A DNA stretch of 64,000 bases, taken from assembly GCA_017432485.1 (NCBI GenBank), contig JAFRJB010000078.1, positions 1 through 64,000 of the forward strand, read 5' to 3'. The notes beneath the pieces were generated by a model that did no database searches, was not told where the DNA came from, and saw only the letters and a list, made by a program, of their open reading frames with translations. A program made the translations under genes and the position numbers. This document shows positions 1,519-63,530 of the stretch, one piece after another. The first letter of the stretch is position 1. Each line of letters opens with the position of its first letter. The DNA comes from Clostridia bacterium (GTDB lineage Bacteria; Bacillota; Clostridia; Oscillospirales; Acutalibacteraceae).

Positions 1519-1794
1519 AAGCACAGCCACTACATACGAACTCGCTTAAAATCCGATATTTAAGCGGCTTTTAGCGTTTTCGTTCTTGCCTGGCGTCAGC
1601 CAAGCGGCGTACTCAAAGCACTAAAATCCATCTTCACTATCAGGATTTTAAGTGCTTCGCAGTTTCTATTTAGCTGATTTGTTCTCTAACAAGGCGAAAA
1701 ACGCAGGAATACTTGGCGTATTGCGAGTATTTTTAACGAAATTAGAGGGCAAATCGGCAAATAGAAACCGAATTCATATGTAGCGGCTGTGCTT
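1519..1794 (+). repeat. Dispersed hairpin-ended element, copy 1 (divergent)
   Basis: A 276-bp element bounded by 22-bp imperfect inverted repeats (1519-1540 and 1773-1794, two mismatches). Inside are a CGCTTAAA/TTTAAGCG hairpin, a TGGC-GTCA-GCCA hairpin, a long stem GTTTCTATTT/AAATAGAAAC continued by GATTTG/CAAATC and CTCTAA/TTAGAG, and an apical GGAATAC-ttggc-GTATTGC hairpin. The apical block and the GTCA-loop hairpin are shared with the copies at 18996 and 38526, while the terminal arms differ in sequence but still pair. No ORF is encoded. It could be a MITE-like element or a structured RNA. Confidence 0.7.
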
Positions 1795-2287: not shown

Positions 2288-3994
2288 ATGACAGAAAAAT
2301 ACCAAGGATTATTAGAGCAACCTTCACAAACCAAAACGTGGAAGGTTGCTCTTTATATTCGCCTCTCGAAAGAAGACGGCGACAAAGGTGAAAGCTATTC
2401 CGTCACCTCTCAAAGAGAAATCTTAACGGAATACCTCAAAAGCCATCCCGACTTGGAGCTCTACGATACCTATGTGGATGACGGCTGGTCGGGCACCAAC
2501 TTTGACCGACCGGATTTCAAGCGCATGATGGAAGATGTGTATGAAGGCAAAGTCAACTGCGTGATTGTCAAAGACCTCTCGCGTTTCGGCAGGAACTACA
2601 CGGAATCCGGCAACTACATTGACAATGTGTTTGTGCGCCTGAAGGTGCGCTTCATCGCGCTCAACAACGGTGTGGATTCTTTTTCCAACACCATGAATTC
2701 TGCAACGCAGTGCATTGCGGTCGGTGTGCAAAATGTTATCAACGAAAGTGTGGCGGCAACCACCTCGGTGAATGTACGCGGCACGCTCAATGTTTCGCGC
2801 AAACAAGGCAAGTTTATCGGCTCCTTTGCGTGCTACGGCTATCAAAAAGACCCGCAGGACCACCATAAGCTTATTATTGATGAAGAAGCCGCCGAAATTG
2901 TGCGCATGGTTTTTAAGCTCTTTTTGGAGGGCAACAGTATTCTCAGCATCACCCGCGAACTTAACGCAATGGGCATCCCGAACCCGACGGCTTATAAACG
3001 AGAAAAAGGCTTAAACTACTCCGCACGCACCGGCTACAGTAATGACGGGCTGTGGTGCGACCAAACCGTGCGCCGCATTCTCAAAAATGAGATGTATATC
3101 GGCAACATGGTGCAAGGCAAAAACACCACCATCAGCTACAAAATCAAGCAGTGCCGCGCCGTGCCGCAATCGGAATGGATTATTGTTAAGAACACGCACG
3201 AGCCGATTATTGACAAAGAAACATTCTACAAGGTGCAGGCGCTGTTGAACAAATCGACCTTTTCCCGCACCTCCCCCACTACACACAAGGTGGACATCTT
3301 CGCGGGCTTGGTCAAATGCGCCGACTGCGGCAGAGCCATGAGCAAAAAGACCAACACCTTCAGCTACGGCACCTACCGCTATTATCGTTGCGTTTCCTAC
3401 AGCAAGTTCGGCGGTTGCTCTGCACGCTCCATTCGCTTGGATGTGCTTGAGCAAGCGGTTTTGTACAGTATCAAAGCCGTCATCGAAACTGCGCTGGAGC
3501 TGGAAGCCTTTTTACTGGAAGTGGAAAAGAAAGCCGCGCAGCTCCCGGAAGCCAATGTGCTGCAACGCACCATTGATAAAAAGGTTGCCGAGCGTGATAA
3601 GTACAAAAACATGGCGCTCAGCCTCTACCCGGATTTAAAAAGCGGGGTGATTTCGGAGGATGAATATGTTGCCCTGAAAGCAAACCTTTTGGAGAAGCAA
3701 AAGGAGCTCGAAAAATCAATCGAAGAGCTGCAAAGGCGCGGCAATAAGCCGGGCGAAAAGGACATGACACAAAATGCATTTTTGCAGCACTTCCTGCAAT
3801 ATGCCACCATCGATAAACTCACACGACCGATTGTGGTAGAGTTGATTGATTCCATTTATATTCACAAAAATAAAAACATCACCATCAACTTCAATTTTAC
3901 CGATGCCTATGCCGATGCACTCGACTACATCGCCGATGTCAAACGCAAAATGGCTGAGGAACTCAGCGGCTCACCCACAATTGATATTGCATAA
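2288..3994 (+). CDS. Large serine recombinase (TnpX-like site-specific integrase)
   Basis: 568 residues, the usual size for large serine recombinases that integrate and excise Clostridial elements. The resolvase domain spans about residues 18-165: YIRLSKED with catalytic Ser27, DDGWSGTNFDRP and VKDLSRFGRNY. A recombinase domain follows (about 180-310), then a zinc ribbon near residue 343 (CADCG ... YYRC) and a coiled coil at about 400-490, the DNA-binding and synapsis parts. All expected motifs are intact, so the enzyme should be active. GGAGG lies eight bases before the ATG. It is the likely mover of the surrounding island; attachment sites could not be located by eye. Confidence 0.93.
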   Translation: MTEKYQGLLEQPSQTKTWKVALYIRLSKEDGDKGESYSVTSQREILTEYLKSHPDLELYDTYVDDGWSGTNFDRPDFKRMMEDVYEGKVNCVIVKDLSRFGRNYTESGNYIDNVFVRLKVRFIALNNGVDSFSNTMNSATQCIAVGVQNVINESVAATTSVNVRGTLNVSRKQGKFIGSFACYGYQKDPQDHHKLIIDEEAAEIVRMVFKLFLEGNSILSITRELNAMGIPNPTAYKREKGLNYSARTGYSNDGLWCDQTVRRILKNEMYIGNMVQGKNTTISYKIKQCRAVPQSEWIIVKNTHEPIIDKETFYKVQALLNKSTFSRTSPTTHKVDIFAGLVKCADCGRAMSKKTNTFSYGTYRYYRCVSYSKFGGCSARSIRLDVLEQAVLYSIKAVIETALELEAFLLEVEKKAAQLPEANVLQRTIDKKVAERDKYKNMALSLYPDLKSGVISEDEYVALKANLLEKQKELEKSIEELQRRGNKPGEKDMTQNAFLQHFLQYATIDKLTRPIVVELIDSIYIHKNKNITINFNFTDAYADALDYIADVKRKMAEELSGSPTIDIA

Positions 3995-18995: not shown

Positions 18996-19293
18996 GGCGG
19001 CGAAGGGCGTGCAACATAGGTGGGTTAATAGATTTTGAAATGCTCTTTTGTGCTGTAACGGCTTCAAAACGGGGATACAGGCGTCAGCCTTGCATCCCCG
19101 TTTATTCATTGTTTCGGCGCAATATAGCTATTTCAAAATTGCTTGCACCTCAAAAATGCAAATTTTTGTGTAAGAAAAGGCAAAAAGCACAGGAATACTT
19201 TGTGTATTCCGAGCATTTTTAACGCAGTATTACGCGAAAAGATGTTTTGAGGCTATTAACCCACCCTATATTGCACGCCCATAACTCGCCGCC
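18996..19293 (+). repeat. Dispersed hairpin-ended element, copy 2
   Basis: A 298-bp element. The outer ends are GGCGGCGA / CTCGCCGCC, continued inward by GGGCGTGCAA/TTGCACGCCC and GGTGGGTTAATAG/CTATTAACCCACC. Inside are a GGGGAT...ATCCCC hairpin capped by AGGC-GTCA-GCCT, a CCTCAAAA/TTTTGAGG stem continued by TTTTTGTGTAA opposite TTACGCGAAAA (with G-U type pairs), and the apical GGAATAC-tttgt-GTATTCC hairpin. It is about 85-90 percent identical by eye to copy 3. Its end lies 12 bases after the stop of the DUF2779 gene, where that gene's terminator should be. Confidence 0.85.
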
Positions 19294-38525: not shown

Positions 38526-38822
38526 GCAGCGAAGGACGTGCAATAAAGGTGGGTTAACAGATTTTGAAAAGCTCTTTTGTGCTGTAACAGCTTCAAAAGA
38601 GGGATGCAGGCGTCAGCCTTGCATCCCTGTTTGCTCATTGTTTCGGCGCAAAATTGCTATTTCAAAATTTCTTGCACCTCAAAAATACAGATTTTTGTGT
38701 AAGACAAGGCAAAAAGCACAGGAATACTTTGTGTATTCCGAGCATTTTTAACGCAGTATTACGCGAAAAGATGCTTTTTGAGGCTATTAACCCACCTATA
38801 TTGCACGCCCATGACTCGCCGC
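38526..38822 (+). repeat. Dispersed hairpin-ended element, copy 3
   Basis: A 297-bp copy closely similar to 18996-19293, with ends GCAGCGA / ACTCGCCGC, then GTGCAA/TTGCAC and AGGTGGGTTAA/TTAACCCACCT. The GGGATGCAGGC-GTCA-GCCTTGCATCCC hairpin has exchanged bases on both arms relative to copy 2. Its end lies 12 bases after the stop of the nucleotidyltransferase gene, the same offset as copy 2. Confidence 0.85.
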
Positions 38823-53707: not shown

Positions 53708-53734
53708 GAAAAAGCACCCATCGCTCGATGGGTG
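53708..53734 (-). terminator. Riboswitch expression-platform terminator
   Basis: CACCCATCG (53715-53723) pairs with CGATGGGTG (53726-53734), and five Ts follow on the minus strand. The CGATGGG at the end of the aptamer can pair with CCCATCG here instead, giving the antiterminator. Confidence 0.85.
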
Positions 53735-53744
53735 TTAATCATTT

Positions 53745-53829
53745 CCCCATCGCTCAAGCTTTAGCACCTTACCTTGCGGCAGGTTGCTGTGCGGTCAACG
53801 GGCTTGTCCCTCGCGCACTCTCTATAGGT
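53745..53829 (-). promoter_or_regulatory. SAM-I (S-box) class riboswitch aptamer
   Basis: On the minus strand the core reads GAGAGTGCGCGAGGGAC, AAGCCCGTTGAC, GCAACC and AAGGTGCTAA, matching the S-box consensus GAGGGA...GCCC...TGA...GCAACC...GGTGCTAA. P1 pairs CCTAT (53824-53828) with ATGGG (53746-53750), P2 uses TGCG/CGCA and P3 GGG/CCC. The 3' P1 strand overlaps the antiterminator, so SAM binding should cause termination before the amidohydrolase gene. Confidence 0.85.
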
Positions 53830-53861
53830 TTGTATGTAGTTTTTAAATTAACTCTGCTTTG

Positions 53862-63274: not shown

Positions 63275-63530
63275 TAAAAAAGCCCCTTTGTTCAAAAACA
63301 AAGGGACGAAAATATCGCGGTACCACCCTGATTGATTTACACAAGTAAATCCACTCTGCGAAGTTCTGACAAACTTCCTGCCAAGGTAACGGGGCAAACC
63401 GTAGCGGCTTACTCAATTCTGCCGCTCAGCTCCGGAACGAGACTTGCTAACCGTTCGCACCGCCTTACACCAACCGGCGGCTCTCTTTGCCGAAGGGAAG
63501 TTAACAATTAATTCCTTCATCGCTTTTTTC
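63275..63530 (-). promoter_or_regulatory. T-box riboswitch, probable leucine specifier
   Basis: On the minus strand the T-box core GGGTGGTACCGCG (63313-63326) lies upstream of a terminator (CCCTTTGTT/AACAAAGGG, 63284-63305, then TTTTTT). A stem I of T-box type precedes it (AAAGAGAGCCG, GGTTGGTGTAAGGCGG, GCGAACGG, CCGGAGC, CCGTTACCTTGGCAGG). The triplet at the specifier position appears to be CTC (Leu), just before GTTCCGGAG. Uncharged tRNA would stabilise the antiterminator and switch on the LeuA-like/ligase operon. Confidence 0.88.

Follow-up and report, generated by a model that had tools for sequence, protein, structure and literature searches.

Are short dispersed repeats that keep their fold while their sequence changes the trace of a structured RNA, or of DNA that moves by way of its hairpins? 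The question is raised by a 64,000-nucleotide stretch of a Clostridia bacterium genome (contig JAFRJB010000078.1 of assembly GCA_017432485.1, 2.6 Mb in 140 contigs; the whole stretch is henceforth referred to as the window), in which an earlier note had placed three such elements at positions 1519–1794, 18996–19293 and 38526–38822. All three lie at these coordinates, and they carry the apical AGGAATAC...GTATT hairpin and the GTCA-loop hairpin described for them (copies 2 and 3 have AGGC/GCCT, copy 1 has TGGC/GCCA). The three copies are members of a widespread family of small non-coding mobile elements for which no mobiliser was found. As to their nature, the evidence leaves us about evenly divided over the following reading: that they are non-autonomous, non-coding mobile DNA elements whose identity resides in the fold and not in the sequence of the ends, that a mobiliser acts on them in trans, and that one subfamily (S2) targets the loops of transcription terminators.

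The copies in the window and the family at large

The fold consists of outer arms (P1) leading to a three-way junction, from which one branch (P2/P3) ends in the GTCA loop and the other (P4/P5) forms the core, a hairpin present in all members, whose internal loops contain invariant or nearly invariant bases, AAGGC on one side and AACGCA on the other. In DNA searches copy 1 has only this core in common with copies 2 and 3, and it has close relatives of its own in the genome. It belongs to subfamily S1, for which a full-length alignment of 35 copies was built; copies 2 and 3, 92% identical to each other, belong to S2. A covariance model of the core (R1) matches exactly three places in the window, all on the + strand and at 85–94 bits, matches which are not independent evidence since the model has copies 1 and 3 among its rows, and copy 2 is closely related. 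The parts of the three copies are the following.

1519–1794, + strand: copy 1, exactly AAGCACAGCC...GGCTGTGCTT, a complete S1 element of 276 bp with a three-way junction (S1 alignment of 35 copies)
1519–1545, + strand: 5' closing arm P1 of copy 1, partner 1768–1794 (S1 alignment)
1677–1754, + strand: core hairpin P4/P5 of copy 1, 85.5 bits (model R1)
1768–1794, + strand: 3' closing arm P1 of copy 1 (S1 alignment)
18996–19003, + strand: GGCGGCGA, outer arm of copy 2, probably the 5' half of a host hairpin, partner 19286–19293 (judged from S2 copies of other genera)
19005–19280, + strand: copy 2, apparent S2 element proper, 276 bp, GGGCGTGC...GCACGCCC
19163–19240, + strand: core hairpin of copy 2, 88.1 bits (core model)
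19286–19293, + strand: TCGCCGCC, outer arm of copy 2, probably the 3' half of the host hairpin
38526–38532, + strand: GCAGCGA, outer arm of copy 3, probably host hairpin, partner 38816–38822
38534–38810, + strand: copy 3, apparent S2 element proper, 277 bp
38692–38769, + strand: core hairpin of copy 3, 93.8 bits (core model)
38816–38822, + strand: TCGCCGC, outer arm of copy 3, probably host hairpin

Searches with copies 1 and 2 each returned about 24–26 places in the genome that carries them; the genus and other genera contributed many more. In the host's order (gut Clostridia) the core model matches 91 of 245 genomes, spread over 51 of the 127 genera, and a single genome may hold up to about 20 copies; in a sample of the phylum the core was present in 8 of 398 genomes, four of these being labelled outside the order. 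Relatives of S2 came from genomes G021, G260, G071, G089 and G027, and a third subfamily, S3, includes copies within which S1 copies are nested. Where complete elements were measured, most belonged to one of two length classes: a short one of about 159–166 bp, in which the element (about 162 bp) is one long hairpin, and a long one of about 274–281 bp, in which it (about 278 bp) forms the three-way junction, the extra branch bearing the GTCA-loop hairpin. Outside both classes are S1 copies that measure 246, 267 or 272 bp and an S3 copy of 211 bp.

Related proteins were from metagenome genomes of gut Clostridia and Oscillospiraceae, and the nearest named matches, in the core only, were Anaerotruncus colihominis and Subdoligranulum variabile plasmid records. 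Searches of phages and of IMG/VR gave no match, and no Rfam family scored above its gathering threshold; one locus (L004:2239–2314, in G000:C40) had a match to Gut-1 RNA below threshold (43.7 bits versus 50). No description of such a repeat was found in the incomplete body of open-access literature that was searched. The family gives a name to an unannotated repeat that is present at many contig ends in assemblies of gut Clostridia.

Nesting of S1 within the P3 hairpin of S3 was seen at L138 (G001:C5), L139 (G002:C52), L008, L024, L025 and L133; between L138 and L139 the S1 insert is 99.6% identical and the surrounding S3 parts about 81%. The arms of S3 resemble a tRNA T-arm, yet a derivation from tRNA was rejected, as no tRNA was called at the scanned S3 loci (relatives of the L008 and L034/L024 types) and other S3 copies have unrelated arms. 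One group of S1 copies (L074, L076, L080 (G000), L089, L100 and L101) has similar flanks, CAGAAACAT.GTCG ... CTTGGAGCG; three of these are near tRNA genes, and the group is possibly nested in a further repeat. Another repeated hairpin, CGTGTCGAAAACAAGTTTTTCGACACG, occurs in more than 20 places (G000/G004; right flank of L110, query 1159–1195).

Empty sites and possible terminator-like targets

Mobility is demonstrated by sister genomes, which contain empty versions of filled sites; at two of these the element has entered a coding gene. A GNAT/alpha-beta-hydrolase gene carries an insertion in G000 and G004 but is open in G005, and one for maltose acetyltransferase is disrupted in G001, its counterparts in six relatives (G000 and G002–G006) being uninterrupted. 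In G006 the L042 site is unoccupied (CCCCCTAATACTTTT), the filled version showing at most 2 bp of possible duplication; other empty sites differ at the junction by up to about 22 bp, which suggests that small losses may accompany insertion. A constant target-site duplication, which the earlier note had proposed to look for, was not found: any duplication amounts to 0–4 bp at most and varies between sites. In G260, a nearly closed assembly of three contigs, five copies of about 95% identity occupy different loci.

Two copies, L067 (G000:C40:9675–9953) and L086 (G004:C136:16316–16594), lie in the same codon of the same gene in two species and are identical at 279 of 280 positions, with flanking exons only 79–90% identical, a pattern that may reflect recurrent site-specific insertion or a very short transfer. 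As two interrupted genes have both halves open, an intron or translational bypass was also considered; it was dropped because the identity of the element (99.6%), compared with that of the flanks, indicates recent insertion and because restoration of the frame is inconsistent between sites.

S2 copies lie within inverted repeats, most of them resembling bidirectional intrinsic terminators: the two flanks pair with each other at a mean duplex energy of −17.2 kcal/mol (13 copies), as compared to −8.8 ± 0.7 kcal/mol when flanks are swapped among copies, 11 of 21 copies have TTTTT in the first 32 nt of the right flank versus a background of 10% (p=1.6e-6), and 12 of 15 have AAAAA on the left. These outer stems are taken as host sequence because they are wholly different between copies that are 95% identical inside. 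The S2 branch appears to use the loops of transcription-terminator hairpins as insertion sites. The flanks of S1 look random and show no such pairing (2 of 34 reach the 5% level).

For the window this means that the true element in copies 2 and 3 appears to be the inner part (19005–19280 and 38534–38810), the outermost GCGGCGA/TCGCCGC arms probably being the host (target) hairpin. The assignment to the host is less certain for these two copies because their outer stems are alike and without T-runs, and the arms, being similar, could instead belong to the lineage of the element. The earlier claim that arms are exchanged and still pair has, accordingly, to be divided: it stands for the P1 arms of S1, which covary (see below), and in copies 2 and 3 a host hairpin around the insertion accounts better for part of what looked like exchanged arms.

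One short-type copy, L304 (G128:C61), immediately follows the T-run of a terminator-like hairpin that is intact, and is thus outside the loop.

Covariation of the arms, and DNA versus RNA

Covariation in many copies, for which the earlier note had proposed a test, is significant both in 33 S1 copies (P1, P2 and P4) and in the core. Against a phylogeny-aware null (300 simulations run along the inferred tree, with rates set site by site), covariation of the P1 pairs reached 0.355, five times the highest simulated value (0.039 ± 0.011, maximum 0.071); P2 (0.122) and P4 (0.125) were also above all simulations (maxima 0.038 and 0.039), while P3 is invariant in S1 and P5 fell inside the simulated range. 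The S1 structure was predicted from the alignment that was tested, which favours the percentage of paired positions more than it favours covariation. Up to four Watson-Crick pair types occur at a single position of the S1 arms. Across genera, double changes were found in 17 of 26 pairs of the core, in the helices between the invariant loops; none of 500 shuffles attained the observed measures, and slid structures score far below.

Ends that vary while staying paired are at odds with a sequence-specific transposase, and hence with a classical miniature inverted-repeat transposable element (MITE), i.e. what internal deletion leaves of a DDE-type insertion sequence (IS), moved via its terminal inverted repeats. 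The family is MITE-like in being short, non-coding, multicopy and dispersed with inverted repeats or paired ends, and several subfamilies have a short end signature near TTAGG...CCTAA. However, the terminal repeats of S1 are not conserved in sequence, the target-site duplication has no fixed length, and the copies fetched, a non-exhaustive set, included no autonomous relative that has these ends, partial matches being remnants or contig ends. We consider this origin unlikely.

Pairing might also be maintained with no selection at all, if template switching during replication at palindromes copies one arm onto the other (quasipalindrome correction), an established mechanism (PMC8794818) that predicts strand-symmetric arms. 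Such copying should leave runs of changed pairs, but the double changes in P1 are single and scattered (35 on 18 branches, adjacency p=0.71), and multi-base template switching is therefore not their main cause. It would also leave the invariant internal loops, the fixed lengths and the mobility unexplained, and we find it improbable.

A dispersed structured RNA would have its + strand transcribed and folded, and pairing would be kept because the RNA works or because the RNA is copied back into DNA. The invariant bases of the internal loops and the covariation of the core are in its favour. Strand symmetry is informative here, since a selected transcript should tolerate G-U pairs and not A-C. 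Among the arm mismatches of 69 elements, 114 are G-U and 105 A-C; a parsimony count for S1 gave 20 changes to G-U versus 16 to A-C in P1, and 22 versus 12 in the inner helices. Neither difference is significant, and these counts are not fully independent as they come from related copies. The overall equality in the arms argues against a transcribed RNA and for a palindrome at the DNA level. G-U pairs do outnumber A-C in the core model, an excess weakened by the choice of the structure with RNA energies, which favours G-U over A-C. Fold energies differ among subfamilies: the − strand is better in 31 of 35 S1 copies, the + strand in 8 of 8 S2 copies and, mostly and by a wide margin, in the short families (12 of 14); in the short families G009, G175 and G095 the RNA fold of the + strand is favoured by about 19–42 kcal/mol. 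We read this as DNA-level pairing in S1 to S3, RNA or a preferred single DNA strand being possible in the short families. Between the structured RNA and the hairpin-dependent mobility that the earlier note had left side by side, the empty sites, the strand-symmetric arms, the genes and terminator-like hairpins interrupted by elements and the lack of an Rfam match favour mobility; G260 and G128, moreover, have no reverse transcriptase with which an RNA might be copied back. A structured RNA retains a minor, though real, share of our belief.

A possible mechanism and its relation to known systems

If the elements are mobile DNA, a trans-acting mobiliser would recognise a folded single DNA strand by its core hairpin and paired ends and insert it without a constant target duplication, and S2 would use the loops of extruded terminator hairpins as targets. 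The paired ends would define the unit and leave the stem of the host terminator closed, making it longer and not broken. An element whose two ends pair with one another would keep the host stem closed when it enters a terminator loop, and this would be the reason why pairing of the arms is kept and their sequence is not. More speculatively, and here our confidence is distinctly lower, the family may be a new class of mobile element, whose system reads the core hairpin with its invariant internal loops and needs only paired ends, for which terminator loops are safe landing sites, and whose enzyme, possibly encoded by the host, is one not yet linked to transposons.

Several observations weigh against mobility of this kind. 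No empty site of S2 was seen directly, the host origin of its outer arms being deduced from the comparison of copies, and the preference for hairpin loops is limited to S2. The strong + strand bias of the short families (as RNA) would also be explained by RNA. Among candidate enzymes, Y1 transposases/RAYT had no match in the copy-rich genomes G009, G014, G017, G021 and G027, the IS110 recombinase none in G000, G260, G128, G071 and G089, and the RVT_1 reverse transcriptase none in G260, G128 and G071; as mobilisers all three were rejected because their distribution does not follow that of the element. The same phyletic patterns do not fit a derivative of REPIN/RAYT, of IS110 (with its bridge RNA) or of a group II intron, the last also lacking an Rfam match, and although REPIN/RAYT, IS110 and group II (IIC) introns can all use hairpins or terminators as targets, such a derivation seems very improbable.

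IS200/IS605 and integron attC sites are known systems based on hairpins of single-stranded DNA. As in attC, where recombination uses the hairpin of one strand, structure is kept here despite variable sequence; unlike attC, each copy moves alone, without a cassette, and the conserved part is the apical core and not the foot. Correia/NEMIS, ERIC, RUP and BOX are likewise short, non-coding, multicopy inverted repeats, but these palindromic repeats have conserved end sequences, whereas the present family has covarying ends, a conserved internal hairpin, two length classes and one branch in terminator-like loops. REP/REPIN sequences with RAYT are dispersed folded palindromes too; compared with them this element is much longer, its conserved part is internal and Y1/RAYT genes are not co-distributed. 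Insertion sequences of REP loops, IS1111/IS110 and group IIC introns share with S2 the use of hairpins or terminators as targets, but S2 codes for no protein and appears to enter the loop instead of landing behind the terminator, and IS110 and reverse transcriptase are absent from G260 and G128. Tests for conserved ends and for a fixed target duplication were both negative. For this reason we call the family, which resembles bacterial MITEs, a 'small palindromic mobile element' that belongs to no named family, as far as the incomplete literature covered can show.

Were this reading true, sequence would be separated from structure in DNA mobility, the arms being nearly free in sequence as long as they are paired, and the many covarying elements would form a natural set for studying how a folded DNA strand is recognised. 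Terminator loops would be tolerated insertion sites. For the discovery of RNA genes there is a caution, namely that strong covariation in a repeat can arise from a constraint at the DNA level.

Other features of the window lie outside the three copies. A large serine recombinase (PF00239, PF07508, PF13408) is encoded at 2288–3994 (+), behind a DUF6870 open reading frame at 1847–2182; its gene is 0.5 kb from copy 1 and near the contig end, and possibly marks the end of an integrated element. On the − strand, a T-box leader is found at 63299–63529 and a SAM riboswitch at 53715–53830.
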